A stretch of DNA of 64,000 bases from Watersipora subatra (Eukaryota > Bryozoa > Gymnolaemata > Cheilostomatida > Watersiporidae): the NCBI RefSeq assembly GCF_963576615.1, contig NC_088711.1, positions 12,943,869 to 13,007,868 on the forward strand. Reading direction: 5' to 3'. Shown here one piece after another: positions 525 through 64,000 of the stretch. Made by a program: the position numbers and the translations under genes. Below the pieces are notes generated by a model. It was given only the letters and a program-made list of their open reading frames with translations. It had not been told where the DNA came from and did not search any database. Every line of letters starts with the position of its first letter. The first letter of the stretch is position 1.

Positions 525-3500
525 TTATACGTTATTCCGACTACGATCAAAGCATCCGTTCCTTTGTAAGACAACAACAGCGAGCCCGATGAGTGCGAGC
601 CCTACCACAGCTCCACCAATTGTCATAGCAGTGACACTAACTTTTGATGAAGCTTTTACGCCTGCTCCCAGAGCGGCCATAATGTCCTCCTTTGCCGTAG
701 CTGTCTTGGTACCGTCACCACGGGGTGTTGCATCATACTCAATTCTTCTTTGAACTGGCATTGATCCAGTCTTCTGCGCTGTGCTTTGCGTCGTACCCTG
801 CGCTCCAGCATTGTATGATGTACTCTGTGCAACCGTAACACGTGCTTTACTCCGCACTCTGCACCGTAGTTTACGTCGCCTTGCACTCGGTGTTGTACTT
901 TGCACTCTACTCTGTGCTGTACTCCGTACTGTGCTCTTCATTGTATTTTTCACCGTGTTTTGCACAGTAGTTAAGAGTGTAGTTTGCATCGCAGTTGGCA
1001 CTGTAGCTTGCAATGTATTCTTCACAGTACTCTGCTTGTTGTTGCTTGGTTGGCTAACGATAGACTCATCAAGAAACATTGCGATGTATCCAATATGTGT
1101 GTTCAGATTACCCACTTGCACCTGCAGATACAATGATGTGACAGAGGCAATTAATACTGTTTAAACAACATTCAGCTGTAGCTTTCATTAAACTGAAGCA
1201 AAATCAAAGACTTCTCTTTGTGAATAGTAGTACTTTTTTTCAAGCACTTTAAACTTTGAGCTGCTCAGACTTTGCACAGAAAATTTGAAACTTTTGTTTC
1301 TGATGCCAAACTCAAAACCTGAGCAGCCCCAAGATAAACCCAAGATGACGCAGCATGGTTGCCAACTGAGGATCTTTTGTGTCTTTACTTTTCAATTGAC
1401 GTATGCAGGCATGCTCATTTTAGTTAGCGAAATACTGACCGTACTTCATGCTTTGTTATTATGTTATTTTCATCTTATATTAAAATAAAACACTAATAAC
1501 GATTTTTACACTTTTATTCTATAAAAAGTAGGAGAAACTAAAGGCAGAGTAAAACTAACTGCAGATATGGTAGTAGATTACTCAGCCTAAGTTTTCTATT
1601 TTCTATTGGTGAAATATACATTGTATATGAAAATTTGATGTATTCAATATATTACCTGCTCTCTTATTGTATGGCCTACAGTTAAAAATAGGGTGATGAT
1701 ACTTGAAAAAATGGTGCTCTAGTCTAGGAACAAATGTCAATCATTCATATTAGTTATATTGAGAAAAATTGTTTCGCGATTTGAAAAAATAGTAAGTATA
1801 TTATATATTCTCCTGAAATGAACTGTTATAGAAAACTAATTTATTACTGTATTACTGTAAATTATTTGAGTATATCAAAAAGATACAACTAGAAAGGCGA
1901 AGTTCTCGCATTTTGTGACAAATAAACTGAAATTAAAGAGCCAGTTGAGCTTTTCAGACTGGTCACTAATTATAATTGACTTTAATAGTTTTTAATAGAC
2001 AGTATAGATATACTATAGATTACCATAAGTCGATGAGACAACACAAACATCACTGAAGTATCAGAATGCAGCTGATATATCGGCCTGTCACACTAGGAAA
2101 TACTCACTGTGACTGCAGGTATGCTAACGCTGGGGTTGTCAGGGTGTGGACGACTATCTCCTTCGGGCTCTGGTATAGTTGCTGGTAAGACACACACTAG
2201 TTTATTATGATGTACTGTTGTTGAGTCACAACCTCCTTGTCCTATAGTTATTATATAGTCAGCAGCTCCAGCACCTGCAGCACCCATTTATATGGTGTCA
2301 ATCAGACCCTACCACACTGTGTCTACACAGTATCACTACTACACTGTGTCTACACAGTATCATTGCTACACTGTGTCTACACAGTATCACTACTACACTG
2401 TGTCTACACAGTATCACTGCTACACGGTGTCTACACAGTATCACTGCTACACGGTGTTTACACAGTATCACTGCTACACTGTATCTACACAGTCTCACTA
2501 CTACACAGTGTCTACACAGTATCACTACTACACTGTTTCTACACAGTATCACTGCTACACTGTATCTACACAGTCTCACTACTAATCTGTGTCTAAACAG
2601 TACACTGTTACACTGTGTCTACACAGTATCCCTGCTACACTGTGTCTACACAGTATCACTGTTACACTGTGTCTACACAGTATCACTGCTACACTGTGTC
2701 TACACAGTATCACTACTACACTGTGTCTACACAATATCATTGCTACCCTGTGTCTACACAATATCATTGCTACACTGTGTCTACACAGTATCACTGCTAC
2801 ACTGTGTCTACACAGTATCGCTGCTACACTCTGTCTACACAGTATCACTGCTACACTGTGTATACACAGTGTCACTACTACCCTGTGTCTACACAATATC
2901 ATTGCTACCCTGTGTCTACACAATATCATTGCTACACTGTGTCTACACAGTATCACTGCTACACTGTGTCTACACAGTATCACTGCTACACTGTGTATAC
3001 AGTATTACTACTACACTATGTATACACAGTACCACTGCTACACCGTGTCTACACAGTATCACTGCTACACTGTGTCTACACAGTGTAGCAGTGAAGCTAT
3101 ACTTTGAAGTTACTCTTGAACCGTGATCAGGTAAAACAATCTGTCAACGCCTCAATATGCACAAAGTTTTACATATGTTATACATACTATATAACCAGTA
3201 AATTTCAGGTCAATTCAGAAACAGTCATTTTCTAACTAGCTAAAATTAAAAACATGAATGACCACATTTCAAAAAACATTTACTATTTAAATCACCCAGC
3301 TTACGTGTATATACCATTGTGGGCTAATGTTTATGATGGTTGAGAAATAAACACGTAGCTTGCCAACTTGAGTATAGAATGATCGTGTAGGACTGATACA
3401 GCCAAACATAAAGTCAGCGTTCTAAGTTATCTGTTTCAAGATTTTCTTCATGTGCTAAAGTCATTGCATGTCAGAGCAAACATTCTCACCAGAAAATTTT

Positions 3501-6500
3501 AGAAAAGTATACAAAAGTTTGAAGCTTTGGGGCAAATAGTAATAGTGATCATTTCTGGATGTTCGTTGAGACCGTAAAGTAATGCTAACTGAATGAAGTA
3601 CCTCACGAAATGACTAGTGGCAATAATCTATAGCCATATATTTCCTGTAAGACAACTTTATTGACAGAAATTAAACTAAATATTTAGGCTAAAAAAGGAT
3701 CATGAAACATGTTTTACACTCACCACTTGTTAGATGCCTGCCAGTGATTTCTATGAATGTATCATTTTTGGCTAGTCGTCTTATTTCGCTCGCCTCACTA
3801 AATACATCCAATTGTGGGTCGGGCTGTACTATTAGAAAAGAATCATTCTTCAGCCAAGGTACATTTGAAGCTTGTTTAAACTCTTTGAATCCATCCAGAG
3901 CAAAACCTACGGCGAAGTCGTATTTATCGTTGGCGTCAGTCTCCCTCTTTTTTCTAGCAGACTCAACACATTGGATATCCGCTCTCTCCAGAGCTTTCGT
4001 AAAATCGGGACAGCGGCAACGCATGTTTTCTGCGCTCACTACCAGACAGTCCTATGACATAAGAACAAACAGAAAATGAACCATACAATTTAAGTAAAAG
4101 ATTTCTAACCACTCATCTTCTGTCACGACTTATCTACAGAGTCACATTTTTCTTTAAAAATAGAATATGGCTGATCTATTTTGTTGAAATCATGTTCTCG
4201 AGTTAATCGTTCATCGACTTACACTATGGAGAGACGCAATGACTTCATAGACTTACTCCATAGAGAGACTCAATGACCTCATTGACTTATCCCATAGAAA
4301 GACTCAATGATCTCATAGACTTACCCCATAGAGAGACTCAATGACTTCATTGACATATGCCATGAAGAGAATCAATGACTTCATAGACATACACCATAGA
4401 GACTCAATGACCTCATAGACAGACACCATAGAGAGTTTGAATGACCTCATAAACTTAAACCATAGAGAGAATCAATGACCTCATTGACTTACCCCATAGA
4501 GAGACTCAATGAGTTCATTGACTTACCCCAAAGAGAAGCTCAATGACCTGATAGACTTACAGCATAGAGCAGCTATGGCCAAATGGCGGATCTACATGTA
4601 GATCCGGATTCGGATCTTTGCGGTGTTTTTTGTGTATCTTTCAAGTTAGCTGTCGGAAGAGTTTTTTGAAGTATTTTCTTTAATTTGTTTTTAAAATGAT
4701 TTTTGTAAACTTATATCAGAATTTTTGTGAATTCCTTGCTTTCAGCAATGAATTTTGTAAAAAGTAATTCATTCATAAAAAGTAAAGTATTCATCTTCGT
4801 AAACTTTAAGAGTCGCTGTAAGTAGCAAAAAACTGCGTTCTGATAGTAATGTGAAGTCAAAGCCCACTCCTCATTTTTCTCACTAATATCAGACATATTT
4901 ACTGCAGCACATATATTCACTGATTTGTAGTCATTATGTATACAAGCAAAATTTTGTAAAATCGTATTTGAGGCCTTGTTTAAGATGTACATAACTACTT
5001 GCATGTTTATGTATGATAAAAACGAAAAATACACATCTTCAGCTTGTTGTGGATCTTTCATTTGCCAGACTTGTCTGTAATGGATCATGGCCAAAATCAT
5101 TTGGCCATCCCTGCCATAGAGAGACTCAATGACCTCATAGACTTACCCCATAGAGAGACTCAATGACCTCATTGTTGCTCTTGCAAAACACAGTTACTAT
5201 GATCATTGGATTAGCGATGGACTGTAAGTTTGTTCCTGTTATAGGAATTACCAAACCACCTCTGCAAAATTATAAAAAGAAAACAAACTTTTTTAAAAAA
5301 GCATACTAATTTATCATTTTATTTTCATGAAACCGAAATAAAATCTTTATAAAATAATAGTTCTTGAAACAGTGTCAACTGGCTTCAAAGAAAAAGTCTA
5401 AAATTGTTTCTTTTTTTAAAGAATTCTTCACAGGCCCTACCAGTGCTTAAAAAACTACAGGTAAAAGAAGTACACCTATCTTTTGTACACTACTAGAGAT
5501 GATAGATCTGAGCAAGAGCATCACTAAATGGTAGAATATACTGTATAAATTCATGGCTTTAAAATGATACAATTTTAGGATTCCTAGTTGACTTGTTTAA
5601 AACACCATATGCATGTGTATTTCCTTGAAAAACTTTGAACAGAACTAGAAAAAGCCCAAAAAATCATGTTCATCATCTGTAGAGAACATAAACTTTACTG
5701 TAACAGGAAGTGAAAGAGTTTGTTGTAGCAAAGGAGCCATTCGAGTTCAAACTTGCTAAAAGGTTATAAACATTAATATGGGTAGAGACTTATACTTTAT
5801 AAGTATATACAAATTCACAACATTTGTATTCCTCATTTGTGTTCTCTAGATATCAGATTGGTACAAAACGAAACCATTTCACACTGTTGGTAACAAATCA
5901 CATCGTAGATTGTGGAAGGCAACCTCTATTGTGTTCATGCAAGCTAAGGAGCGGTGGTTTTGTTGCAGTAGTTATTGTATTACTTTAATACTATGGTTAT
6001 TTATACGTAGAGTTACTGGATCATGACTATTTATAAAATAGGCAAATATTTAAAGATTGTGTACTTCTTAGCAAGACTGTATCAAGAAAATAAAAACCAT
6101 CAGGTACGCTGCAGGTTACTTTGTAAATGATTATGGGGTGGAACAGCTTTTTGCTTAGTCAGCCTAATTTCTAACCTAGTAAACACATTGATTCTTCCAA
6201 TTCCTGTGATATTAGGGTTAGGAAGATAACTGAAGTTACGTAATGGGATAGTCTCATCAGTGTAGATAGGAGTTGTCATCTCAATGTCACTGTACAACCT
6301 CGGAGTATGGCAGTAGAAGTGTGTTTCATTGTGAGTCCTGAAACACAAATACATGTATTTGTACTCAACTTTGCAAAAAAGCAAGCTCTGTTTGAATTAG
6401 ACAGATGTCAAGGTCAACTTACTGATTAAGGAGCTTGTAGCACTTGTTAGAGCCCAGATTGACATACTCAATGGAACTCAGCCATGCACCTTCTACTAGT

Positions 6501-9500
6501 AAGAGAGTTCCACCAGCTATAGGACCAAAGGTTGGATCTATCGTGTGCACGTAGGGGCGCTGCAAGGACATATATGAATAGCTATTACCATTGTAAGTGA
6601 GTATAAATTTCATATGTAAGTTGTAACATTCTAGTAAAAGTATACAAATTCAACAAGCTTGCTGGTATTCAATATCTGCCTTAAGAGGGTTAATAAAGAT
6701 AAATGGTGAAACTAACAAGGTGCAATAATATGGTTTATTGTAAACTCGAAAGGTATCTTAGTTGTTTTCAAAGTGAAAATATGTAAATTATGTAAAATAT
6801 GAAAATTTCTCAACGTAATGATTATGAACTAATCATAATCGCAAATGATAAAATAGATATGGATGGAAGATATACATGTGTATACAGAGAACTTCTACAT
6901 AAATTATAGTACGTAGTTTCATTTACCCTACTCCAGCTAAACAATGGTTAGTCAGTTCAAACCTTTTGACCCCGAGTTACTACTATAACTTGAAATTTCT
7001 GGTGTCAACTAGTGCAAGACATATATCTATGTTATTACATCAAGACTTATATTTCAAATAATATTATTTGAAGTTGTGTTCTCATATTGATAATGGGTGA
7101 ATCCTGCGAAGCAATCTCCATTAAAATTCTGCTCAGCTAAAACTTTAATATTCAGTAATGTGTTGAAGCGCACACTGTTAAACAATAATAAATATGATAG
7201 TAAATATAAATATGTAATAGTAAAATATGGTAAAAATATATAGTAAATATGTTAGAAACTGATTAATGGTAATTTCCTGTTGGCTAATCTTAAGAATGTT
7301 ACAAGCAAGCAACAAGGGTAATGCTTATTGATTTATTGATTGTTAATTGATCTTTTTCAACTATAAATAGCTGACAACTCTTTGTCTAATTCTATAAGTA
7401 TATACATGTCCAGCAGAATTAAAATAGTACATACACATTTGTCATCAGCTAGTTGAGGCTTTATACCAGCACCTTCAGTGTTGCACTCACACCGACCCTC
7501 AGTGCAAGTTTCAGCCTTAGCACCAGCTCCACAGTTACAGGGCATGCAAGTACCCATCATCTCATAGGTTCCATATCCACAATCAGTACAATGGTTTCCT
7601 TCATAGCCTCCTGGACACAAACACCTGTGGCAAATAGTCAACCCTTACTGTCACCCTGCTAGAAGTAAATGCATATATAGTATTAGTAAATGTAATTATA
7701 AACTCAGTAGGTTAAACATCTTAAGTTTATAATGAGATGCTTGCCTGCTCAACATTTATGGATTCATAATCTTGAAAATCTTTTCTCTAAGCCAAGTGTA
7801 TACAACTACAATATTTTATTCAATCCACATATATATATATATAAATCTCAGTGTTTGTCTGTCATCTGTTGTTTGTTTGTCCGGTTATAGCGATAAAATT
7901 TCAGATATGGAAAATGTGCCCTGCAGAGAATTTGAGCTTGAAACCTCCTGGTCTGCAGACATGCAAGCTAACCCTGTAGAGTGTAGACTATGTGTCCAAC
8001 TGGCCATAGTGATTAATAATAGTGCACATACTTATTACATCGGTGACAATAGGCATGCTTTAAGCGCTTGGGAAAAGACTTGGTTATTAACTAGCACACT
8101 TGATCATTACGTGTAGCTTAACGTCTATTAAGCTGGCTTCTGACGCGGCTCTTACTATAGTAAACATTTTACTAGCTCAAGTTACTAGCTCACCAGGTGA
8201 GTCACTCAAATTCATCGGATAATTATTTTATTACCCATGCACCACTGAGCATTAAGCTAGTGAACAATAAAAACAGATTGTCAATGTTATGCAGATCATT
8301 GATCCATTTATATCGTAATACCAATTGTCAGTTTATATAAAAAAAAACCTAGCAAATGTAGCAAACCACTTGAATGAACCTAAACTATCGGTACAGGTTT
8401 AACTTACGTGTACCATGATGGTTGATCAAATTCAAATGAGTTAAGTCCTTCACCTCTCTCAGCTTCATCAGCCTCACTTGGTGAACTTATGCTACACTCA
8501 CCTCCATTCTTACATAGGCAACTACACAAAGCACCAATGTTAAAATAGCTTTGCAAATCAAATCAGATAGATCGATATATCTCTATGCTATGTGTTACAT
8601 GGGTATTCTTTAATATCGACATGGGTCTTATTTAGCTCACGCTACATGAAAATGTTACAGGCTAATGTAATATTTTGTTGAGAAATTTCAAACCTCATGA
8701 ATATGATTTGTTAGCAGCTGTATCCACCCCCTTGACCTACCTGCCAAAAACAGCTATTTCATTGATGGAAAATCGTTCAACAACTTCAATCTGGAAGTCA
8801 TAAAGATAGAATGAGATGGTTTGAGCCTCAAAGACCCCGTCCCGCACTGATTCATCAAAAGCAGTTTGATTTTTGGTAAGTCTATCAGGGTATAGGATAG
8901 TCTCAGTCCAGTCCAGATACATAATCCTTGCATCTTTATGAAATGGCTCGCTATTAAACAGTTATGGTAAGCGTTGTAGCGGTACAATGCATTGATATAT
9001 AGACTATGCAAAGCTAACTGATATAGCAAATACATACTTTTACAAGTCTATGAGTCATTCCATCTACTGTAACAGATACCCACGTTTATCTTATTCTTCA
9101 TTTTCGCTCGCCATCGGTGAAAGCTTTTCCTACTGTTTCTCATCTCAGCATTCCAACAGCTTATACCTTTTATGTACTCATATTGATACAGCTAGATAAA
9201 CCCTCTTATCTATCAGAGCTGATAAGTTGTAAGTACACAGTCCAGCCTTCACACTCTCAACAAGAGTAAATAAGATTATTGCGGTAATCAGTCAGCATAA
9301 AGCCAATCATTGATTTTCCTTTTAGTTGTTGGATGAGACATAAATCACACATTTTAGATACTATATTTAAAAATTCTTAATTGCCGAGTTATGTTTTTTA
9401 TTGCGGTAAAGAGACTACTCACTGATGGTAGAACGTTACCTGTTAAAGAGTCTGGTAAAATCTTGACAATGGAGAGAAGCACCCTGTGGTAAATTTTCTG

Positions 9501-12500
9501 GTAATGGAAGAGAACAATCAGGAGAGATGACAAAAAGGGTCTCCTCTTGTGCATTCTCATCACGTTTTTTTGTTACAACCAAATATTTTGACAAGGATTG
9601 TACTGCCAAGGTTGCATAGAATATCTACAATAACATACATGTGTATAAACGTAGCATACATAAGTATATGTTGTATCAATATCAACTAGCAAGACTCGTA
9701 AAAATTTTATGGTTGTGTATTCTTTGTTTATGTACCACTCTTCAACTCAGGCAGTTGACTGCTCGTATTATTCTTTTGCTGATCATTAACAAAGCCAAGA
9801 GAAACCCATGTTTTCACTCATTAATACTTCACCGCCGTGTTTACTTTTCATGTGTTAGTGTCCCCTTTTTTACTTTTCGTCACGTTTTTTACACTTGTAA
9901 ATTGCATGTCGGGGTATATTCAATAAAAGCTATCTTGTTCTCAAACTATACACGCTTGTATTGAAAGTGATAAGGTTTGATTTACAATACAATATTTAAT
10001 TTAAATTATGAACAGTAGCTACATGAAACAATATTTACTAAACTTAATTATATAAAATATTTCTAATAAAGGTGGCTTCTCGGCTTCAGCCATGAGTAAA
10101 ATCATTCTGAAGACAAGTTTTAACTTTTACACTGCTCATTGACCGTGCTGTGATATCATAATTTCCTGAAATGTAACAAACGCTTTGAAAGAATACAAAT
10201 ATTTAGAACATACAAAAACTTAAGCATTTTTTTAGCTGTCCCTGTTATCTTCATTGATGTTCTCTGGCTGCCTCTCTTCGCAGCCCTCTTCGTTTAATTA
10301 ATCGGATTGTGGGTAAACAATTAAGGATATATACTAACGACAATACATTATTTAATTTTAAATTTTGAGGGCTAGTTTGAACTCTTACACTGCTCATTGA
10401 CCGTGCAGTAATACCATAATTTTCTGAAGCGTAACGAGTGATTTAAAATAATATAAATATTCCCCTCTGAGCTGTTCCCATCTCCTTCTTTGTCGTTTTC
10501 TGGCTGCCTTTTTTGCTGCCTTTTTCGTTCATTCATATTGAGAGTAAACAATTAAAGACATATACTCACAGTAATGTGTTTTTGATATTTTTAATCAAGA
10601 CTTTGGTAAAACTCTTCAAGCATTTTTTGAACACCAAAAAATAGGAACATCCTTGTTTGCGAAAAAGAGAAATTATATTTGTGCAAAACTATATAGAGCC
10701 TTTGTATCCGTGATACTATAATTTCCTGATGCGTGACAAACACTTTGAAAAAATACAAACACATGCACGTGTATTAAACAGTGTTGAGATGCTTCTAATT
10801 TATTCTTATCATATTACTGAAGACATGACACGGCGACCAACTAATAGACACATTAGTATCCTGGCAGTCAGTGTGTTATGGGTGATCATCAGGTGTAACG
10901 CTATTAGTTAAAAATTTGTGCAGTTACATTGATACACCCAAAACTGGTCGATCGGCACAGGTAGCAGATTATCAGTCTACCAATCTGGGTGTTGAGAGTT
11001 CAAATCTCACTTGTAGAAATCTTTTATTAAACTGTAACTGTCGCTTTAGGCAGACAAACGGAAGGACAGACATGGCTTTTATTATAGTAAAGATTTTTTA
11101 AAAGTGTGACACACGGCGAACAAACACGTATTAGAAGTATTATTAAATTATTAACGTATTATCAAATTAGTATATAGAAGACAAGTTATATATATATATA
11201 TAATGTTGTATAATCAAAGTATATACGGTATATTTATGTACAAAATAATATTGTGTGTAGCTCTAAACTTCTTTTTTAATGTATATGACAATAGAAAATG
11301 AATTCAACATAAAATTACCTGATAGGATGTACCAAGATCTACTGTTATTTTTGTTTGATTGATCAAACCAGATGTTATCCAGTAGGTAGTCAGGTCTCCA
11401 TCAGTTATTTGCTGTGCCAGGAATGACTCGTCATTGAATCGCCGAACAGTTTCATGACCACTAACAGACTGACAAAAAACTCCTGCATAATTCACATCGT
11501 CGAACGACGGCCATTTTTGAAATATTGGAAAGTTCTGGTTACAGCTGCATTCAGGTGATGGATAGACTGATGGCTGGGAACCAGTTCTCATCATGTACAG
11601 TTGTCTGTAATTTTACAAAATTCAATGGAATCACTCTAAGAAGGAAGACACAACTCTACATGATTGTTAAAAAATCACTCTATTTTAGAGTATTACTCCA
11701 TTAAGTTAAACACAAACACTGCAAACAAGTTAAATACAGTATATCATGTCTGTCATAAACATGAATTTTTTCTATAAAATAGGAAACTTCAATACTCACT
11801 CAGTGGTGACAGTTCCATTGAATATCTTCCAGTCATCAATATTGTATCTAAATGAGTCAGTAGGAAGCGCTAGAGTGAGACCAGTTAGCGTTATGTTTGC
11901 TTCAGAATAGATGACTGTTCCATTCAAAAGGAAGGCAACTCCCTTGTTGTTACCTGACTGCAAATGAATATCATAGAGCAATGGAGAATAATCTACAACT
12001 TCTGTTATAGACACTTTCAGTACCTTATATATCTTCTATTAAAATGTAAGACGTAGTAACATGAACAGTTGTTACCATTATGGCTAGCTGGTTAGTTCCA
12101 TTGACTTTGAACTTGTCAAAAACCATTCTCTACAACAAAACAACATATGCATTTATATGAATTAAATTTTGCTAAAAGTGAATAAAAATAATACATGTAC
12201 AATGTAAACACAATATATGTATGTATGTATAAGCTGTTATGGAAGTAGCACTACTGCATAAACAAAAAACCTGGTCAGTCTGCAAGCCATCTGCCAAATT
12301 CTTTGTTACTATTAAAGAGAGAACACTGAACTTTCCATCATGTGATGCATTGACTTTCATCTGAATATTACCACTGTAGTCTGAGAGGGTAGCAGTGAGG
12401 AAAAGACTTTCCCAAATCGAGACACTGTAATACAAGAATGTTCTTCTCTCTGTCACAGCAGTAGCTGACATCATTTTTATTATTCTAATTGACTTCTGAG

Positions 12501-13484
12501 CACATTTAGTTTGTACTAATTGAGCAACTGCCAAGCACTCCACTGATAGAACTTTAATTATTTAAACTAACAAGTTAACTTAAGTTAACTTAGGTTAATT
12601 TGTTAGTTAACTTAAGTTAACTTAGGTTAATTTGTTAGTTAACTTAAGTTAACTTAAGTTAACTTGTTAGTTAACTTAAGTTAACTTAAGTTAACCTAAC
12701 TTAAGTTAGGTTAAGTTAACTTAAGGTTAACTTAAGTTAACCTAACTTAGGTTAACTTAAGTTAACTTAAGTTAACCTAAGTTAACTTGATTTACTAAGT
12801 AAACTAGTTAGTTGGTTTTGATAAATATAAACAATCAGACATACATGTACAATGTAAAATGATCCTTCTTGTGATACAAAAACTTAATGTCTACAAAAAC
12901 TTATTGTAATACCTAATTTTGTAGCTGCATTATATCACGGCAGACATTGAATTGCTAATAAGTGTTACTTAAAACTGAAATCTAACCTTAGTTCATCTTT
13001 TCTATTTATACTCTACGTAGTTAACAAATTTCTAAACACTGCTTTTTACAAACCTGGAGACTGAGAGAGACAGCACATAGGTTCTAGCTACGCTCAAGTC
13101 AGATTCAACCTCGTTCTCTCCTAACAACAAGTTGCTTTGGCTGTTTGCTGGTGTAATTTGTTGGATATCTGGAGGACTGTCAAGACTGTCAAAAGTACAC
13201 ACTTCTAAGCATTGAATAATCTTGAACCTTTGTCCATTAGAATCCTTTCCAAGAGGATCGCCAACAGCAAAGCTTCCAATTGCAAAAATGCCTGAGTAGC
13301 CCAAATCACAGTGATCACTGGGAGATGCCGTTATCCTTTTGAATAATGCAGCATTGAGCAGAGGGCTGCCAACGGCGCGAGAGTAATCCTGATTGGCGGG
13401 AGATGTTATATTAGAGCCAGTAAGTATATAATACTGGTCAGTGAGACTTACGAAGGAGGCAACAATTAGCAAGATGGGGAGCAT
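525..13484 (-). CDS. Usherin-like N-terminus plus plexin-type IPT domains, single-pass membrane protein
   Basis: Multi-exon gene read on the minus strand. Exons I could place: 13484-13054 (ATG, signal peptide MLPILLIVASFVSL), 12449-12271, 12129-12076, 12023-11800, 11604-11319, 9602-9440, 8926-8741, 8521-8408, 7624-7435, 6559-6423, 6337-6108 or 6120, 5259-5147, 4051-3724, 2274-2108 and 1121-525; together roughly 1,150 aa. The first five exons match the usherin N-terminus and LamG-like region. Exons 11604-8741 make a laminin N-terminal domain (TDGDLTTYWITSG; ends FSINEIAVFG). 8521-7435 are Cys-rich EGF/laminin-EGF modules. From 6559 on there are three plexin-type IPT domains (IDPTFGPIAGGTLLLVEG; IPITGTNL; IEITGRHLTSG), ending PAVTVQVGNLNTHIG as plexin stalks do. 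The last exon adds a Thr/Ser-rich stalk and a membrane segment (TIGGAVVGLALIGLAVVVL) with a short basic tail. Splice phases agree except at 13054/12449 and 11319/9602, where a short exon is probably missing. A further cytoplasmic exon beyond the left edge cannot be excluded. Role (adhesion or receptor) is inferred. Confidence 0.8.
2311..3088. repeat. 27-bp minisatellite, about 29 copies
   Basis: Tandem copies of a 27-bp unit of the form ctacacagtatcactactac plus actgtgt, with scattered substitutions (for example gctac or acaatatcat variants). 27 is a multiple of three, so long spurious frames of repeated HCVYTVSLL or TVSTQYHCY type run through it; they are not genes. The array sits in the intron between exons 4051-3724 and 2274-2108 of the membrane-protein gene and ends about 37 bp before the acceptor of the latter exon. 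Confidence 0.9.
4215..5180. repeat. 34-bp minisatellite derived from an exon/intron junction, split by an insertion
   Basis: About 10-11 degenerate copies at 4215-4575 and about 2 at 5108-5180. The consensus on the plus strand is ctcatagacttaccccatag followed by agagactcaatgac. Read on the minus strand each unit holds the last 24 or so bases of exon 5259-5147 (coding NEVIESLYG) followed by its donor GTAAGTCTAT. The functional exon end is itself the rightmost part of the array. 4573-5110 is a non-repetitive insertion. Confidence 0.85.
4573..5110. mobile_element. Candidate short inverted-repeat insertion, about 0.54 kb
   Basis: The tract that interrupts the 34-bp array begins ATGGCCAAATGG (4577) and ends with the inverted copy CATTTGGCCAT (about 5097-5108), an 11-bp terminal inverted repeat. 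It contains a minus-strand open frame of 129 codons (5100-4711) with no motif I recognise. The match to a transposable element rests only on the inverted termini and the clean interruption of the array; no target-site duplication is clear. Confidence 0.45.
7836..8010 (-). mobile_element. tRNA-derived SINE, degraded
   Basis: On the minus strand a tRNA-like head is visible: a box-A-like segment (GGGTTAGCTTGCATGTCTGC) and a box-B-like segment (GGTTTCAAGCTCAAATTC). It ends in a conserved tail ACACTGAGATTTATATATAT. The same order and tail are seen at 13632-13812 and, on the plus strand, at 36712-36875. The adjoining 8010-8170 contains a second shared motif (GCGGCTCTTACTATAGTAAA) found in other repeats of the window. 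Confidence 0.55.
10110..10745. repeat. Three diverged tandem duplicates of about 260-290 bp
   Basis: The block cactgctcattgaccgtg at 10131 recurs at 10388, each followed by a diverged copy of cataatttcctgaa and a run ending in ggctgcct and cagccctctt-like text. A third partial copy starts at about 10693 (gtgatactataatttcctga, tgacaaacactttgaaaaaa). All lie in the intron between exons 11604-11319 and 9602-9440 of the membrane-protein gene. Confidence 0.6.
10925..11100 (+). mobile_element. tRNA-derived SINE
   Basis: A tRNA-like head (box A like CAGGTAGCAGATTATCAGTC, box B like GAGAGTTCAAATCTCAC) is followed by a body ending in ACATGGCTTTTATTATAGTA and an A/T tail. The 3' motif (gacagac.tggcttttattatagtaaagat) is shared with repeats near 8140, 14120 (inverted) and 29540, which marks an interspersed family. 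It is not a functional tRNA, since no full cloverleaf can be drawn. Confidence 0.6.
12560..12800. repeat. GTTAAC palindromic satellite
   Basis: About 240 bp made almost wholly of GTTAACTTAA-type units with occasional GTTAACCTAA or GTTAGTTAAC variants. Both the core (GTTAAC) and the linker (TTAA) are self-complementary, so the array can fold on itself in many registers. It lies in the first intron of the membrane-protein gene. Confidence 0.9.
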
Positions 13485-17037: not shown

Positions 17038-17918
17038 TTAAAGGTTGACTTGCAACAAAATTCACATTAGTTATTTGATATGAAAAAATTCACCATGTCT
17101 TACTCTAGTGTTGTAGATGCAAAATATGTGGGAATGTGATTACAAGCTCTTAAAAGCTCAAAAATGAACAGTTAATCACAGCCACACGAGACCGCCGTAG
17201 TTTGGATTCTCTTTCCAAAACGGCTCAAATGTGACGTAGTTGTGGTAGATGGTTTCTGTTTACACTTTCTTGCAACCTTATTCGTCTAAATATTTTCACA
17301 AATATACTTCACGCATTCAATAAAACCATGTCTATTGTTCTTATGCGTCTATTTTATTGTCATTGTAATGCTGTTACTTTTAGCACTGATATCTTATAAC
17401 TTACCGTAAAAAGTCGTTAAACTTTTTAACCTTAGCTTGAAGGAGTGCATATCATTGTCTGATAATCATGACGAGCCTGTTGGTCACCTGTGATAATCGA
17501 AAAGTGCTGCAAAAATTATTTTCGAAGTATTGGGTCACATGATCAGATTACGACTTGACGATTAGTTCAAGCCGAAAGAAAACTGTAAAGTAGCGAGCAT
17601 CTATATTTGATACGGGGTCTTCGGTAAAACCCGAAGTGTTTGTCAAAAACTAGTGCTACAATAAGTTTATATTGAGCTTTTTATTGGCCTTTCAACTCAT
17701 GTGAGAACATCACGTGACAAGACAATAACCAAACTATCATGACTATGTCAGAAAAATAAACAGATTCCAATCTACGGCAGCTTTTCGTTTTTGAGCTTTT
17801 AAAAGCTTGTAATCGCATTTCCACATATTTGGCACCTACAACACAACAGAGTAAGACATGGTGAATCTTTTGATACCAAATAACTGTAATGAGAATTTTG
17901 TTGCAAGTCAACTTTTAA
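17038..17918 (+). mobile_element. TTAA-bounded long-inverted-repeat element, copy 1
   Basis: An 881-bp element beginning TTAAAGGTTGACTTGCAACA and ending with the inverted equivalent TTGCAAGTCAACTTTTAA. Inverted arms extend at least 130 bp inward (TTCACCATGTCTTACTCT against AGTAAGACATGGTGAA). Two further copies lie at 41339-42229 (inner part inverted) and 49754-50666. No transposase frame is present, so it is non-autonomous. TTAA at both ends would fit a TTAA-targeting superfamily such as piggyBac, but the termini do not show a typical piggyBac start. Confidence 0.75.
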
Positions 17919-18424
17919 TAATTATAGTTTAGCTGATGAAGTGCTAGTGGTAAACAGAATGCTTCAGCTTTATTACTCAGACACCAACTATAAATGTAAA
18001 AGATTTATTCTGTAAAGATTAAATAAACAACTTCGTTCAGATTAAAATACAAGATCAATAAAAATAGAGAGGCATTAGTCTGAGCTCTCGAAAAGGCGGC
18101 CCAATCAATAAAGCAGCGTGTTAAACCATTGTAAATGGAAGAGCTAAAGCTGAATAATTGTTTTAATTTTATTCACAGGAAGCAGGAGAAAATCTTGGAA
18201 GATGACTTAATCTTACTGCTAAGTGCTAAGAGCGCTTAGCAGCAATATTCAGGCATTGCTAAAAAATTTATCAAAAATCACTTTGTAACACAGCATTTCA
18301 GGTTGACCTTCTCTTTATCCTTAGTAAACCCTGCATTGTGCCCATAATAACAACAAGCTCAGTAAGAAGTCCCAATAAGGAACACAAGATTAAAAACATT
18401 TGCTAGCTCATAAGAGAGGTGAGC

Positions 18425-21400
18425 TCAGGTTTTTTGAGCAATGATAGCAATAGAACGAGGAGAAATCTTGTCGTCGAATAAGGAGACCAGCTGACACAAA
18501 TATCCTTTCTCTCTCAGATACTGTTGACGATCCCTCAAAATGACAAACTCGAGCAGTTCTTGTAGCATAACTTGAAGGGCGTCATACCACCTGTATATGC
18601 ATGTACACATTGCTACTTATGCATAACAATAGGAATGAAAGAGATGTATCCATAGCACTTGCATGACTTGATGAAATAACCAGACCAACAAATATGAACT
18701 CAGAAAGCTGCTTCTTAAACAAGTACTAACTAACAACTAAGCTACAAGTTATTCATACTGGCCGTCATACAATCCGATACATGACTACATACCAAAAAAC
18801 TTAACAACTGAAAACTAAAATTGTTGGAATACTAGAAAATAGATAATGATAATCGAAACAGACAATAGATAATTGTGATAATAGATAACAAAAACTCACC
18901 GAATATATGAGAAAAACTCCTTGCACTCGGTATATGTGTCAGATAGTGCAGTTTTGACCATACTAATGCTCAGACCTTCCACATCACCAACACGCTCCAA
19001 TACTGCATCAATGTATGTTTCAAATGAACTGAAGGCTGATAAGCCAACCAGACGCCTGTGTTTCTTGTGCCAGTTAAAGCCTAGAATTACAAATACTATT
19101 TAATGTGAGCCGCAATGGAAAATGAGCTGTATTTTAAATTGAGCAGTTACAGAAGAAGATAAATCTGAAATTCACTAAGAGAACCCAAATAAAAAGGTTG
19201 GCTCAGCTGCTGCACATACTGTGCGCAACAAAAAAATATAACCATTCCTTAACTCTGTACCAATCAGAAAACTTGTGAGCTGTTCCCCAGACACTTGGTA
19301 ATGCATCTTAAGCAGATTTAGGAAACAATTTTTGAAAATGGATTGTGATTATACCACAAACAACTTTATGTACTAATGAAACACAAAATTAAGAATTGTT
19401 GTTACTTTCATGTTGTATGCTCTTCATAACAATATGAAGAGCGCACAACTCCTGTTGTATCTTATTGAAGGTTATCAAACCCATGCAAACACCTGCCCAA
19501 ACCGGTATTCTAGTAACTATTCAGTGAACAGTTTGACTGATGACAAATGGTTAATTTAAAAATATTTTAAAGTTTACAATTTACACCAGAACATATATAC
19601 TGGTATATATGTTTTATTGTTATAAATAAATATTTATCTTATGCAGAGGGCAACTCATAAAGATACAATGTAAAATCATAACAGAGATCTTCCTGACACT
19701 TGTACTAAGATTGCTTGAGTACTAACTCTCTCACTAACACCTGTGAATATTATGCAGCTTTTATATTACAGTAGCCTTTCCAACAGGTACAATCTTCAAA
19801 CTACTACAGGTCATGACCACTGTCATATAATACCTCTGTATAAACACTGCAAATGCTGTAACTCAATCCTCCATCCCACAATATTTGCACAATAGTAAGC
19901 ATATTCTAACTTACCCTTTCTGTGACTGTACAGTTCCAAGACTGCTCGGAAAGCTACATGCTCACAATGCTTTTCCATTTCTCCATCTGTTCTTGCGAGC
20001 TAGGTGAAAGAATGTAAGCAGGCCATTTTCAAATTTCTCAACATCTATAGAGCAGAACATAAAACGATGAAGTGTCTAAAACATGACTATAATTCTTGAG
20101 AACTATTATTACTACTGACTATCAACTATTATTACTACCAACTATCAACTATTATTACTACCAACTATTATTACCTCCGACTATCAACTATCCATCGTTT
20201 TTTTGACGTCATCACCCTGTTTGCACATACGCCCGTTCACGAAAAAGCTGCCATCTTTGCAGAAAACGATCATCATTCTCTTGATTAATAATATTTTTCG
20301 GTGATGTTTTGATACTAAAATGAAAAATTTGCAAACAAAAGCATTGTTTGCAATAATTAATTGCAGAAACTTCGTATTTTTAACGATAAAAGTTGTCCAT
20401 AAAGATGGCGGACAACGATAGAATGACATCACGAAAAAACGAAGGATTATTACTACCAACAATTAACTATTATTACTTCCAACTATCAACTATTATTACT
20501 ACCAACTATTAACTATTATTACTTACGACTAGTAACTATTATTACTACTGACTAGTAACTATTATTACTACTAACTATTAACTATTATTACTTACGACTA
20601 GTAACTATTATTACTACTAACTATTAACTATGATTACTACTAACTGTAGCGAATCCCCTGGTTCATAGTTATATTGTCACATACAGGTGATGAGGCATAG
20701 TGTATATTCTATTACAAATTTATTATGTATGCTTGTCAACACCTCAAAACTACAATAAAACAATATCTTGATTGTCGATAAAGGTTATTGAAAGTATGCT
20801 AATTATACAGGTAGTTATCTGCAAAGCCATTTGGTAACATATAAAATAAAACACATAAAATGAAAGATATAGTATTTACACATCCAGGAGATTGCTAAAT
20901 AGCATGTGATTCTCCTTCTGTTTAATTCTTGATTATATATGTATGCGATAGATATAGGCGTAATGAAGAAACTTAATACAGATAAAAGAAAGTATCAGCA
21001 TCGAAAAATAAAGCTGAAAAACTACATGTTGTTGGCTCAAAGGCTGACAAAACAATGACTTTAAGCACACCTAATCAAACGTATGGCAAGTTAGACAGAC
21101 CACACAGGACCATTAGACCACCCAAGATCAACAGATCAACTGGCATTTATTCTGGGCAGGAGCAGTGAATCATACAGGGTGACTAGATATTGCAGTGCAC
21201 TATCAAATTAGGAAATTTAACAGAGACAGCAGAACTTTACACTAACTATTACTACTACTGACTAGTAACTATTATTACTACTGACTATTAACTATTATTA
21301 CTACTAACTGCTAACTATTACTATTACTGACTAATAACTATTATTACTTCCGACTATTAACTATTATTACTACTAAAGATTAACTTTTATTGCTACTATT

Positions 21401-23002
21401 AATTATTATTACTACCAACAAGAAACCTAAAGAAAAAGAAGCTAGAGCATGACAGTTGCTCACCCATCTTGATTTAGGCTCCTGACAGGCCAGCCGGAGG
21501 GCCAAGTGATTTATAGAGCATCCATGTTGAGATGCAGAGTCTTGATACCAGCTTTTAAACTGACTGCTCATGGGAAAGTTACCAAAATGAGCGTCTAAAC
21601 TGAGTCTGTGGTAACAACAGCCGAGGCAGACCAGTGTCTTGCACTCTTCAATCGTATGAAACTGGTGAAGAGTTGCTGGTGTAAGGTCACCACAGCAATG
21701 CAGGCCTACCATACAGACCCTGCACTCATCAGTCTCGCGAAAACTACTGGAAGAAGAGGGCGTAAAGTTTTCACCTGCCTGCTCTGAGAAACTTCCTTGC
21801 TGCACTTTAGAGTCTGCACAAATATCAGTAGCGCTAACGGAGCTGTGGTGTTGCCTAAAGGAGTCTCGGAGTATCTGAGTGCATTCTGAGGAGGTATCCA
21901 CACGCAAACATCTTGTCTGTAAATTGTTAGAGGTAGCTCGCTGCATTCGCCAATTTTGACAGTTACCATCCTCGAGCTCAAATCCAAGCACATTTAATTT
22001 AAAAGTAGACATCAAAGTTTGTCCGAGATAACCTAGTCCAGCACCGATATCTCCAATTAGATTACAGCCATCCTCTTTGCACAGTTCACCAACTAGTGAA
22101 GCCATTCGTCTCACTTCGTGTCGCTTTTTTTCACTCATACCTTTCTAAGCAAAAGTGTAGACTAAAGTATGGATAACACTAATTAAATAAAATTATTTAT
22201 GCTGTTTGTGTAATAGTAATAATGACGCATAAGAAAATTGCCTACTAAAAATCTGCTTACCTGCAGAGAAGGGCTGAGAGTGATGGAACTATCCCACTGC
22301 TTGGTAAGACAGCCCCGAGTTTGACTCAAGGATTTAGAAAAAGCCTGTAGTGTAACTGGCCACTCGCTATGTACTTTGCCTTTCACAAGATCTCTAAGTT
22401 CTGCAAGTCAAGAAAGTTTAGTAACCATAGCAACTAATAAACTATTATATTTCTTAGCCTCACATGGTTATATAGCTATACAAGTTATACTAGTCCTACA
22501 AAGCTAAATAATAGCTTTTACGAAGGGTTTTTGTGAGGTGGATTGACTTACTACAATATAGCAAAACTGTACATTGGCAAAGCAGAATTTAAAAATGACT
22601 CGGTGTAAGCCGGACCCTGATGTCCGAGATCGCGTTCATATTTAGTCAGATAGTTCGTTGATGGGTGTTCAAGAGGCTGGTTCTCGGACATCTGATGGAG
22701 TATTGAAACTAAACATTTTGAGCGACATGGCGGTAGGCACTGAGCATATACGTGTGAAATTTGGATGAAATCTACCATAAAATGTGGAAACGCACAGCAT
22801 TTACGCAGACTAACAGACAGACGCAATGATAAAGTGGGATTTGTTAATATAGATATAGTAACCAACCTATATACGACATGGCGCAGAGAATATCAGTCCA
22901 GTCATGCGGAGCTTTCTCCCATGGTCTTCTTATAAAGATATCAGTCATCTTACAGTCAAACAGCCACGAATATGTTAAGCATAGGTCTAATGCTAGATCC
23001 AT
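18425..23002 (-). CDS. METTL25/METTL25B-type methyltransferase-like protein
   Basis: Six exons with matching phases: 23002-22867, 22400-22261, 22144-21464, 19999-19915, 19080-18900 and 18590-18425, giving about 462 aa, close to human METTL25B (RRNAD1). The start is chosen because an in-frame TAA lies one codon upstream of the ATG. N-terminus resembles the family (YSWLFDCKMTDIF, then WPVTLQAF). KKRHEV at about 98-103 precedes the glycine-rich motif GDIGAGLGYLGQ (123-134), the expected SAM-binding loop. The signature GLHCCGDLTPATL (about 239) and CLGCCYHRLS (about 265) follow. The end, REKGYLCQLVSLFD then SPRSIAIIAQK, matches the family C-terminus. A poorly conserved Ser-rich loop (QQGSFSEQAGENFTPSSSSS) lies between motif I and the GLHCCGD motif. 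Introns hold satellite arrays and a MITE. In other organisms these proteins are putative Rossmann-fold methyltransferases; the substrate is not inferred here. Confidence 0.92.
20095..21420. repeat. ACTATTATTACTAC-type satellite, two blocks
   Basis: Blocks at 20095-20650 and 21235-21420 consist of imperfect units of about 23 bp built on aactattattactactaact. They are in the intron of the METTL25-like gene between exons 22144-21464 and 19999-19915; the second block runs to within about 45 bp of the upstream exon's donor. The first block is interrupted by an inverted-repeat insertion at 20191-20446. Confidence 0.8.
20191..20446. mobile_element. MITE-like insertion of about 256 bp
   Basis: The insertion starts TCCATCGTTTTTTTGACGTC and ends with the imperfect inverted copy GATGTC-type text (TGACATCACGAAAAAACGAA). 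It cleanly divides a satellite block. There is no coding capacity; a short spurious frame runs across it. The inverted termini of about 20 bp and the interruption support a non-autonomous DNA transposon. Confidence 0.6.
22697..22855. repeat. Dispersed repeat, copy 1
   Basis: About 150 bp similar to 47113-47290, with shared text gagcatata.gtgtgaa.tt, gatgaaatctacca and aatgtggaaacg, then gcagcattt and cagac. It lies in intron 1 of the METTL25-like gene. The parent element is unknown. Confidence 0.6.
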
Positions 23003-28669: not shown

Positions 28670-29225
28670 TTTTATCTGCCTAACATTTGCCACAATTCTA
28701 GCAACTTCATGTTAGTAAGAAGTGAATATTTAAATTAAAAGCATTTTCCTGCTTTGTAGCCAAAATATCGAGAAATAATTATACTAGTTTTTAAAACTTG
28801 CATGGCTTTTATCTTCACTGCTCATAAGGATATGTATCACTTTTTTCAGTTTTATTAAAATTTAAAAATTTACAGATTGAAAGTTTAGTGGATCCTTGAG
28901 AAGATTTGATATTTTTGTACTGTTGTCATGTTGGCATCATGCCAAGGTAGTTAGAATATTTGTGGCTCGTCTGATTATGAATGAAAATATCTGTAAATTA
29001 TATTATGTTGATATTATTATAAAGGGCAATTTTACTTATTACTTTAAAAAACTTCATGCATTCGAAGCATGCAACCAGATGATCTTAAATATTTCTATTC
29101 GGCAAACTTATTAAAGGATTTCTAACAAAACTTTAAAAAAACTAGTTTTTCATTCCGACAGGTTATCTTCAGGTTAAAGTATACATTTTAGGAAATTGTT
29201 GTTTGGGCATGGCTGCCATATGAGA

Positions 29226-42870
<13,645 letters not shown>

Positions 42871-49753: not shown

Positions 49754-50666
49754 TTAAAGATTGACTTGCAACAAAATTCACATTGCAGTTATTTGGTATC
49801 AAAAGATTCACCATGTCTTACTCTACTGTGTTGTAGGTGCAAAATATGTGGAAATGTGATTACAAGCCCTTAAAAGCCAAAAAACGAACAGTTAATCGCA
49901 GCCATCACAAAAACGCCGTAGTTTGGAAAAACTTTTCAAAACGGCTCAAATGGGAAGTAGTTGAACACGATGGCTTTTGTTTACACTTTCATGCAACCTC
50001 ATTCGTCGAAATATTTTCACAAATATACTTCATGCATTCAATAAAACCATGTCTATTGTCATTTCGCGTCTATTTCATCATCATTGTAATGCTGTCACTT
50101 TGAGCACTGATATTTCAAAACCTACCGTAAAAATTTGTTTAATCTTTTAACCTTAGCTCAAAAGAGTGTATATCATCCTCTGATAAATACGACGAGCCTG
50201 TTGGTCACCTGTGATAGTCGAAAAATGCTGCAGAAATCGTTCGTACTACTTGGCAAGAAGCATGAGTCACATGATCAGATTACGATTAGATGATTAGACT
50301 AAACTGAACTGCAAAGTAGCGAGCGTCCATATTTAATAAGGGTTTTCCGGTAAAACCTGAAGTGTTTGTCATAAACTAGTGCTAAGAAAAGTTTTATATT
50401 GAGCCTTTCATTGGCCTTTAATTTCACTCGATAACATCACGTGTCAAAACAATAACTACGTCGAGTTGAGTACGTCATCAAAATAAAAGAATTCCAAACA
50501 ATGGTGTTTTCGTGATGACTGCGATTAACTGTTTGTTTTTTAGCTGTTAAGAGCTTGTAATCACATTTCCACATATTTTGCACCTACAACGCAGCAGAGT
50601 AAAACATGGTGAATCTTTTGGTACCAAATGACTGTCATGTAAATCTTGTTGCAAATACACTTTTAA
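49754..50666 (+). mobile_element. TTAA-bounded long-inverted-repeat element, copy 3
   Basis: A 913-bp copy from TTAAAGATTGACTTGCAACA to CTTGTTGCAAATACACTTTTAA. The interior is collinear with copy 1 (for example ACGAGCCTGTTGGTCACCTG). It is somewhat more diverged than copies 1 and 2. An 88-codon frame across its left half (49837-50103) is not conserved in the other copies. Confidence 0.8.
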
Positions 50667-51369
50667 AACAGATTATTTAACACTGCTATACTGAAAAAGG
50701 AAAATCATGAGTTGCCTACTTTTGGTAAGGTAAAACAACTTCTGGTATAACTAAGTTAGGCTCGGGTACACAAGAGAAGTTTTTAACTTAATATCAGGGG
50801 ATACCAGCTGAAAAATAGAAAGAAAATAATTCATCGCTTTCTTTATACTCTTGAACAAACAATTATGTAGTATTGGAATCTATTACAATAATACAAATGT
50901 CCCAATAGGGCTATAGAAGATTTTAATCTATATATATTTCTCCAAGTATGTGTGTATGTGTGTCCTTCCAGCTATAGCTATTATTAGAATAGCTTAGTTG
51001 CACAATGCTTACGCAATGTCATGGCTTACCGTCATTAGAAGCCTTAGCGCTTATTAACTAGCTTACTGGAATTTTCCATTGGCAATGTGACAGGCTAATA
51101 GCAAGATGCAGGTAACTCTCATCACTTCTCATTGTTTATAAGCTGATTTTTAATACCTGGGCAACACCGAGAGGCTCAGCTAGTAGAATAACATAAGAGA
51201 GTTCAACGAAATAGTTATCAGAGTCTGTCAGTGTGACAGTTTTCAGTGAGGTCAAATCCAATACCTCCAACCTGCTCTATTTCGAGTCAGCCTTTGTCTA
51301 TATTATTGTCCATAAACACTTTTTTTGATAGATTTTTGAAATCTAATCTAGGACTCCCTAATGACGCAA

Positions 51370-62457: not shown

Positions 62458-64000
62458 TCACACTTCATTTGTAATCCATAAAGTCTCCAGGTCAGCATCA
62501 TCGAATGAAAATAGCTTTGTTCGTTGTACATGTGTTATAGGCACATTGACTTGGCCATTAGCTTCTTTGGCCTTGTCCTTCTTTGATTTTTTCACTTCCT
62601 TTCCCATCAGCTGTATAAAACATTTTTAAACTTGTATCGACTATAAAACAATATTAAAGCTATAACTTCGAAGGTCAAGAATAACTGAAAGCTCCATAAA
62701 CTACCTGACGCAACGATACATATGTGATATTTATGGCTAGGATTATTGCATGTGATTAGTCGAATATATGTGCATGTATTATATCTACAGTCGCTTGTGT
62801 ATATAGAATGTATTACGTAAGAGTAAAAGCAAATTACTTTGCTGAGTTTTATAAAATATTGCTCTTAAACGTAACTCTGTATTAAATCTTACTATTATTA
62901 AAAATAATGTACCTCATCGTAGCCCACTTCTAATACATCTACAAATGGAGTCTCTATATGTGGCAAAGGTTTTTCGATTCTGAGGGCTTGTGAGGCAATC
63001 TGATGGTGCCAATGTTTTTGCAAACTCTGAAATAGAGAATTAACATATGCTATAACATGGACATCGCTACACAAATTTTCAACACAAGTGCCAACGGTGG
63101 AAAAGGTTGAGATTAAATTTTAATCATAAACTTTCCATAGTAGGTTCCTTTCCATGTTTCGCCTTTTTGTAGTGGCAAAAACATTTACCACAGAAAAGTA
63201 TGTTTTTGGCAATCTAGCAATAATTAAAGAACGATATATACATAGAGCTAGTTATATATACATAGATCCAAGTATTTATGAGCTGCTGAACCAGAGATCG
63301 GGCTCAACATATAAAATATCTAACAGAAAGTTTGGATTTAGATCTTAGATTGTAATGCTATAGTTTTTGAGCATATATTATATCAAATATAATACATGCA
63401 GGTTACAAATGTGATATGGTTACAAATATAATGCATGCAGCTTAAATATTTGTAAGCTACTAACATACACGCTCATAGATAATAATGGGAAGTTAAAAGG
63501 ATTGATCAAAGAATATAACACCAAAATAGTGTCTTCATCTCAACACTAGTTTCTCAGATATGACTACACCACAGAATTACAATTTGATTCCCTTGGTTGC
63601 TTTGGTTCAGCAACAACTAAATATAGTAGCGAGAGCCTTTGAAGACGATGTTAGAACGAGAACGCCATCGTTTAATTCTTCAAAAAATTTGAGCAGTAAT
63701 CTTTTATTTTGACCAAAGAATGTACCTAGTTTATAAAACTAGTGTGAAAAGCATAGGATAACCAACCTTGATCTCCCAGAGGGAGCTGTCAACAGCATTA
63801 CACTTGTTGATATCGGACTCATCAGGTATATAGGGATCAGTATCGAAGCTGCAAGAGGTGTCACGATGGACCAGGGTTCTACATGTGTCGTGGCGGACTA
63901 GCAGGTTAGTAACGAGTTCAAGTATGAGGAGAATGCCATGAGGTGGAGCTGTCAACGCCATTCTTGATAGTTTCTTAATAAACGCAGCAATTGTCGTAGT
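62458..64000 (-). CDS. NOC4L: NOC4L (nucleolar complex protein 4 homologue), C-terminal exons, cut by window edge
   Basis: Three exons: 64000-63767 (continues beyond the window), 63026-62913 and 62610-62458, all phase 0. The first reads KKLSRMALTAPPHGILLILE, then NLLVRHDTCRTLVHR and DPYIPDESD and SSLWEIK; the second SLQKHWHHQIASQALRIEKP; the third carries a basic stretch (KEVKKSKKDKAKEA) and ends SFDDADLETLWITNEV. This order, ALTAPP, RHP/D-TC-LVHR, DPY, ESSLWE, LQ-HWHP, matches the C-terminal part of NOC4L, a member of the CBF/Mak21 family that works in small-subunit ribosome biogenesis in the nucleolus. Residues 78, 38 and 50 are encoded by the three exons; the N-terminal part lies right of the window. 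The gene converges on the zinc-finger gene, with 293 bp between stop codons. Confidence 0.92.

Follow-up and report, generated by a model that had tools for sequence, protein, structure and literature searches.

How an usherin-type head came to be joined to a plexin-type IPT stalk in a single membrane protein is the question raised by a minus-strand gene in a 64,000-nucleotide stretch of the genome of the bryozoan Watersipora subatra (contig NC_088711.1; G000:C4:12943869-13007868 in our searches of the 783.7-Mb assembly), which we refer to throughout as the window. The original prediction, made from the letters alone, saw in this gene a stand-alone shuffled adhesion protein with an unusual combination of domains. 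The combination is indeed unusual, but the gene does not stand alone. Very probably it is one of a tandem pair and lacks the kinase that its partner has: the partner gene encodes a complete receptor tyrosine kinase whose ectodomain is built alike, with a divergent laminin N-terminal (LN) domain heading an IPT stalk.

A protein search of the genome with 973 residues of the window gene returns at least 31 matches, at least 25 of them on C4, where they fall on the window gene and on a second series of exons collinear with it; at least six weak matches on C2, over the IPT part, have E values of 4.7e-4 to 0.0079. The second series forms a paralog at C4:12925046-12904308, 19 kb downstream of the window gene and on the same strand, with 21 exons encoding 1,427 amino acids (aa). 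All 20 of its acceptors are AG and 19 of its 20 donors are GT, the remaining one being GC. This is the donor of intron 8 (12918815), a GC-AG intron at a position where the window copy has GT. Its ectodomain follows the domain order of the window gene, from the signal peptide through three IPT domains. After the membrane helix come a juxtamembrane segment, a kinase with the sequences HRDLAARNC and DFG, which we take to be kinase motifs, and a tail that contains several tyrosines. By Pfam, the kinase belongs to PK_Tyr_Ser-Thr, with an E value of 1.9e-90. Among its best 60 of 741 PDB matches, a chain of 678 residues with the label EGFR, which aligns in two stretches, outranks MET; that chain aside, MET is the top-scoring named kinase (5.7e-82), with MER (1.9e-79), UFO/AXL (2.7e-73), TYRO3 (4.2e-73), and RON (3.3e-72) below it.

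The window gene runs from an ATG at 13484 to a stop at 527-525 on the minus strand and comprises 15 exons with a refined product of 1,095 aa. Its exons were joined by GT-AG signals, which bound all 14 introns of the model, and no stop interrupts the 1,095 codons. Rough splice-site scores flagged the exon 1 donor and the acceptors of exons 2 and 4, and guidance by the paralog places the end of exon 1 at 13054 and the starts of exons 2 and 4 at 12424 and 11957, respectively. Earlier acceptors for exon 2 (12537 or 12484) and exon 4 (12023 or 12035) were dropped when the paralog revealed better ones. The predicted domain order is signal peptide, unassigned N-terminal region, divergent LN, laminin-EGF (LE), EGF, three IPT domains, Thr/Ser stalk, and one membrane helix, distributed over the following features.

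13054..13484, minus strand: exon 1, signal peptide and N-terminal region; donor CAG/GTTTGT, phase 2; 79% aa identity to paralog exon 1
12271..12424, minus strand: exon 2, N-terminal region, for which the label LamG-like is unsupported; diverged, 25% aa identity to paralog; paralog-guided acceptor
12076..12129, minus strand: exon 3, N-terminal region; 18 codons, 50% aa identity to paralog
11800..11957, minus strand: exon 4, last part of the region preceding LN; 89% aa identity to paralog; paralog-guided acceptor
11319..11604, minus strand: exon 5, predicted start of the LN domain (spliced model, Pfam fragment scan, usherin alignment)
9440..9624, minus strand: exon 6, predicted LN domain; 94% aa identity to paralog
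8741..8950, minus strand: exon 7, predicted end of the LN domain; 84% aa identity to paralog
8408..8521, minus strand: exon 8, first part of the LE module; diverged, 42% aa identity; paralog without two of the three cysteines here
7435..7624, minus strand: exon 9, remainder of the 8-cysteine LE module and 6-cysteine EGF module, closing exactly at the donor (cysteine list)
6423..6559, minus strand: exon 10, start of IPT 1; 96% aa identity to paralog
6176..6337, minus strand: exon 11, end of IPT 1 (spliced model, IPT alignment)
5147..5261, minus strand: exon 12, start of IPT 2 (spliced model, IPT alignment)
3724..4051, minus strand: exon 13, end of IPT 2 and start of IPT 3 (spliced model, IPT alignment)
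3944..3955, minus strand: RKKR in exon 13, presumably a furin-type site; RRKR at the equivalent position in the paralog
2108..2274, minus strand: exon 14, IPT 3 (spliced model, IPT alignment)
525..1121, minus strand: exon 15, end of the IPT region, Thr/Ser-rich stalk, membrane helix, and tail of about 12 residues; stop at 527-525
564..626, minus strand: predicted membrane helix, ends approximate (hydropathy)

Two introns of the gene harbor minisatellites. The one in intron 12 (4211-4569) has a 34-base unit whose copies resemble the end of exon 12 and its donor (ATTGAGTCTCTCTATGGGGTAAGT), which places many decoy donors beside the true one. The other, in intron 13 (2314-3084), consists of 28.7 copies of a 27-base unit, partly self-complementary by eye, immediately upstream of exon 14.

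The claim that a single gene crosses the 7435/6559 junction is borne out. The junction is in phase 0 on both sides, as it already was in our first model, and it recurs in the paralog, in which exon 9 (12917749-12917560) is separated from exon 10 (12917341-12917205) by about 220 bases. Because EGF exons are followed by IPT exons in the same arrangement in both copies, we consider them one gene unit. Two adjacent genes, one for an LN-EGF protein and one for a Sema-less IPT protein, might have been wrongly merged, since the exon joins are predicted from DNA alone and the exon 9 donor is mediocre (by a rough matrix, it ranks among the best-scoring 22% of GT sites). However, the paralog repeats the order, phase, and domain set of the window gene over that short distance, the open frame upstream of exon 10 has no signal peptide by eye, and the 8- and 6-cysteine modules end precisely at the junction. 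By carrying EGF and IPT exons in one gene, the paralog speaks strongly against the two-gene reading, to which we are left attaching almost no probability.

As for the kinase, a tblastn search with the last 522 residues of the paralog against the 18.8-kb intergenic stretch and the whole window (E ≤ 10) found no kinase exon for the window copy. Of its two matches, one is exon 15 itself, at its start (0.43), and the other is at chance level, at 30412-30480 in an STK32-like kinase (2.3); because nothing else was returned, the window gene appears to be kinase-less. Exon 15 is homologous to the paralog at its start and then proceeds into a basic, Thr/Ser-rich stalk, a membrane helix, and a tail without clear paralog counterpart; the original prediction had likewise placed here a Thr/Ser stalk and one membrane segment, and hydropathy agrees on the latter. 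Window transcripts could nevertheless have an alternative 3′ end, spliced to the paralog kinase exons or to unrecognised exons and thereby encoding a second kinase receptor. The window gene is upstream on the same strand with a gap of 19 kb, and a possible donor (CAG/GTACAT) is found just past the stop. We find this improbable in view of the in-frame stop after the membrane helix, the AATAAA signals downstream of it at 176 and 172, and the intergenic stretch, in which tblastn finds no kinase-like exon.

How the two genes diverged is best seen exon by exon. They have 14 collinear exons in common, in the same order. Intron phases are identical at all 14 shared positions (13 of them already in the model that predates the paralog, intron 1 being paralog-guided), and 10 of the 14 exons are equal in length (exon 4 being paralog-guided). 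The Nei-Gojobori method gives a dS of 1.63, a dN of 0.41, and a dN/dS of 0.25 for exons 11-15, and a dS of 0.288 and a dN of 0.144 for exons 1-10. Within the latter, exons 1, 4, 5, 6, 7, 9, and 10 each have a dS of 0.08-0.34, while exon 2 reaches 1.18, exon 8 reaches 0.74, and the 18 codons of exon 3 combine a dS of 0.20 with a dN of 0.39 (dN/dS 1.9). Nucleotide identity follows a patchwork as well: blastn (E ≤ 1e-8) yields five tracts of 88-96% identity (13043-13471, 11256-11969, 8670-9681, 7428-7662, and 6398-6565), which take in introns 4 and 6 and leave the remaining introns uncovered save for short flanks. These rates mark the IPT exons as duplicates of long standing that have evolved under constraint. 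The pattern as a whole would best be explained if the genes duplicated long ago and gene conversion afterwards acted on parts of the head, because seven of the ten head exons are far more alike than the IPT exons, and in patches.

The same rates bear on whether the window gene might be a decaying pseudogene of a receptor kinase that has lost its 3′ half. Such decay would fit the kinase exons that tblastn did not find in the intergenic 18.8 kb and the window, as well as the divergence of exons 2, 3, and 8, with the elevated dN/dS of exon 3. It fits poorly with 1,095 stop-free codons, intact splice sites, a new in-frame stalk and membrane helix, and a dN/dS of 0.25 over exons 11-15 at a dS of 1.6, and we judge it unlikely.

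The stalk is clearly composed of IPT domains. Pfam TIG covers three stretches of the first full window model (5.7e-14), and plexin-A1 aligns collinearly across all three domains, in keeping with the three plexin-type IPT domains originally proposed. That likeness is real yet incomplete, since MET is equally close. With MET and plexin-A1 chains, the E values are 5.5e-8 and 3.8e-7, respectively, and the IPT region aligns with MET 657-788 at 8.3e-10 and with plexin-A1 at 8e-9. We take MET 657-788 to be its second and third IPT domains. By these alignments, MET is as near to the stalk as plexin. The plexin chain 5l7n is matched from residue 102, past the presumed IPT3, and the match probably corresponds to IPT4-6, the last three domains before the membrane, because the excerpted text of PMC4980550 describes a plexin-A1 construct of domains 7-10 in which IPT3 is domain 7. 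On its own, the third IPT domain of the window protein is weak (plexin-A2, E 0.0078), and the ending PAVTVQVGNL, which had been likened to that of plexins, lies outside every IPT alignment obtained. Pfam found no Sema, PSI, or RasGAP domain in the window protein or the paralog. A scan of viral contigs with the IPT region gave two pattern matches and zero relatives, and a plasmid tblastn gave 11 bacterial records covering the first IPT domain alone (best E 7e-6). None of the 38 matches listed by a genome-wide TIG family search is on C4, which suggests that single exons of the window gene score too low for that search.

The head is more divergent. An HMM scan of the spliced protein, which recovers TIG readily, finds no Laminin_N at E ≤ 1 in the full-length sequence, and the LN fragment alone reaches 0.0061 with Laminin_N, under the curated cut-off and comparable to two F5/8-type-C models (0.0043 and 0.0066). 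In the LN region of the paralog, F5/8-C leads (0.00019 vs. 0.0028 for Laminin_N). We nonetheless favor a divergent LN over F5/8-C as the probable identity of this domain because it directly adjoins LE/EGF modules, matches usherin by BLASTP, and scores above all shuffles. The domain is directly followed by an 8-cysteine LE-like and a 6-cysteine EGF-like module (cysteine list, with the spacing recognised by eye). For the usherin comparison we used a human sequence that was checked by Pfam, which reads it as Laminin_N (2.3e-30) and Laminin_G_3 (1.3e-15). BLASTP aligns the window protein with it at 7e-08 over 352 positions with 21% identity, and the alignment score is reached by 0 of 1000 shuffles for the whole LN-LE region, 0 of 1000 for LN alone, and 4 of 1000 for LE alone. 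Usherin also stands out among LN-LE regions, with a z-score of 12.0 (0/500 shuffles) as compared with 6.4 for laminin alpha-5 (0/500), 5.1 for gamma-1 (1/500), and 1.3 for netrin-1 (48/500). A small LN profile ranks the spliced window protein first among 1,537 sequences (E 0.003), covering 68 residues only. The usherin-like LN and EGF head of the original prediction thus holds up, with Laminin_N under cut-off, while its LamG-like segment finds no support: Pfam has zero LamG matches in the window protein or the paralog, and, per 1000 shuffles, the number that reach the segment score is 223 for the first model, 524 for the refined one, and 715 for the paralog. Nor did Pfam find FN3 in either protein.

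Several points weigh against the picture of a kinase-less twin beside its signaling partner. The splicing of both genes is predicted from DNA alone, exons 2-4 are the least certain stretch of the window model, and alternative splicing or read-through into the downstream, same-strand kinase exons of the paralog may occur. In a codon-usage test of exons 1-4, which used the older starts of exons 2 and 4, the signal is weak: of 169 null frames, 12, 20, 23, and 42 do as well as the respective exon. The two heads also differ in places: pooled dN/dS over exons 1-10 is 0.50, exons 2, 3, and 8 are poorly conserved, and paralog exon 8 keeps one of the three window cysteines, which leaves its first EGF-type module two of eight cysteines short. 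The constraint is pairwise and not assignable to the window branch, and a dS of about 1.6 is near saturation for the method. MET (278.6 bits) and MER (270.3 bits) are near level, and the kinase alone does not specify the MET family; because of this, we label it MET/TAM-type and no narrower. Finally, the decoy role is one that we infer, ligand binding being predicted. With these points counted, our confidence in the anatomy of the kinase-less twin, based on the exons common to both genes whatever the kinase is called, stays strong, and a decoy or modulator role for its putative product is favored by a small measure.

The pair could have arisen from an ancestral MET-like, IPT-stalk receptor kinase with an usherin-type head where Sema-PSI sits. 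This receptor would have been duplicated, and one copy would have lost its kinase and acquired a new stalk, rich in Thr/Ser, together with a new membrane anchor. The heads would be kept alike by gene conversion, so that the two proteins would share a ligand, which might be a matrix protein or a netrin-like one. An excerpt of PMC7317166 points to such a ligand, as it describes in vitro binding of fibronectin and collagen to the usherin LE region. The window protein might then act as a membrane-bound decoy that competes for ligand and does not signal or, alternatively, as a dominant-negative partner that pairs with the kinase receptor via the IPT stalk and damps it. A soluble ligand trap acting at a distance is a lesser candidate, which we find rather unlikely, in which a cut at RKKR (3944-3955) or within the Thr/Ser stalk would free the ectodomain. 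The RKKR of the window copy and the RRKR at the same position of the paralog may permit processing, and the stalk is basic and Thr/Ser-rich. However, release is predicted from sequence only, and a cut within the IPT region may leave both chains joined; in MET-type receptors, the chains can stay attached after cleavage in that region.

Comparison with known systems sharpens what is distinctive here. Both genes have an IPT stalk in common with MET/RON and with the Met-LP receptors of lophotrochozoans and echinoderms, and the paralog a tyrosine kinase too. According to the excerpted text of PMC6374515, MET and Met-LP bear a Sema-PSI head. In its place, the two bryozoan genes would have an LN-LE-EGF head, and neither a Sema-PSI head nor a MET-family kinase was found in the window copy, which is why we do not regard it as a MET receptor. 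Among the best 60 of 741 PDB matches of the paralog kinase, the TAM kinase MER is near level with MET, and UFO and TYRO3 are slightly above RON. TAM receptor ectodomains consist of Ig and FN3 domains, neither of which Pfam found in the paralog. The window IPT domains match plexin-A1 collinearly, over what are probably its IPT4-6, but the shared architecture ends there: the bryozoan stalk is shorter, Sema, PSI, and RasGAP were not found, and the window protein has a tail of about 12 residues and the paralog a kinase instead. In usherin (USH2A), LN leads directly to LE, as predicted in the window protein with Laminin_N under the Pfam cut-off. Usherin has 10 LE, 2 LamG, and 32 FN3 domains and a PDZ-binding tail, by the excerpted account of PMC7317166, whereas the window protein proceeds from one LE and one EGF module to IPT, and no array of ten LE modules, paired LamG, and FN3 domains was found in it. 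Judged by its predicted architecture, the window gene is not usherin, not plexin, and not a MET receptor; we regard it as a duplicate of a receptor kinase in which the IPT stalk carries a different head.

Soluble VEGFR1 and kinase-free Trk are known kinase-less or decoy receptor forms. Like them, the window protein would be a ligand-binding ectodomain without kinase; unlike them, it is encoded by a separate tandem gene, with its own predicted anchor and a head apparently kept alike by conversion. Among the literature matches listed, titles and abstract openings mention no receptor that joins LN and IPT, an absence which is not proof of novelty. The words laminin, IPT, and TIG are absent from the main text of a tyrosine-kinome study (PMC8662651). 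By its section headings, the survey in PMC6374515 began from Sema-domain proteins, plexins, semaphorins, and Met-like kinases, a starting point from which an LN-headed form would likely have been missed. The pair may represent a new receptor class, in which a MET/TAM-type kinase and a MET/plexin IPT stalk carry an usherin/laminin-type LN-EGF head in place of Sema-PSI and are accompanied by a conversion-matched, kinase-less twin, the two forming a signal/decoy system for matrix or netrin-like ligands; for this full proposal, we put the chances at even. If true, a stalk-kinase unit known in MET, with a stalk known in plexin, both recognized by their Sema head, would have been re-aimed at a different ligand class, probably matrix proteins. 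Moreover, matching heads with and without a kinase in adjacent genes would offer a natural test of how a decoy originates and is maintained beside its signaling partner.

Further IPT loci are found elsewhere in the genome. Stretch L034 (G000:C2:43751000-43760999) encodes on its minus strand, at 4202-5430, another IPT protein, in whose open frames, by eye, the end of an IPT domain is joined by a hydrophobic helix and then a short tail; this is possibly a further receptor without obvious cytoplasmic domain. Among the 38 TIG matches listed, dense clusters of TIG exons lie at G000:C11:38.79-38.93 Mb, where their order is mirror-like by eye, at G000:C9:42.57-42.75 Mb, and on G000:C199.

In the rest of the window, a dispersed element about 900 bases long occurs three times (17038-17931, 41323-42229, and 49754-50676). 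Its copies are 79-91% alike, and their inverted ends, which span about 138 bases, resemble those of a non-autonomous DNA transposon; sequence like it can be seen by eye in stretches L009, L031, and L033. The neighboring genes, with domains assigned by Pfam and names by eye, are a METTL25-like Methyltransf_32 gene (21380-22144, minus strand), the STK32-like kinase (29178-33651, plus strand), a C2H2 zinc-finger protein (59180-60532, plus strand), and a NOC4-like CBF/Mak21 gene (63731-64000, minus strand).

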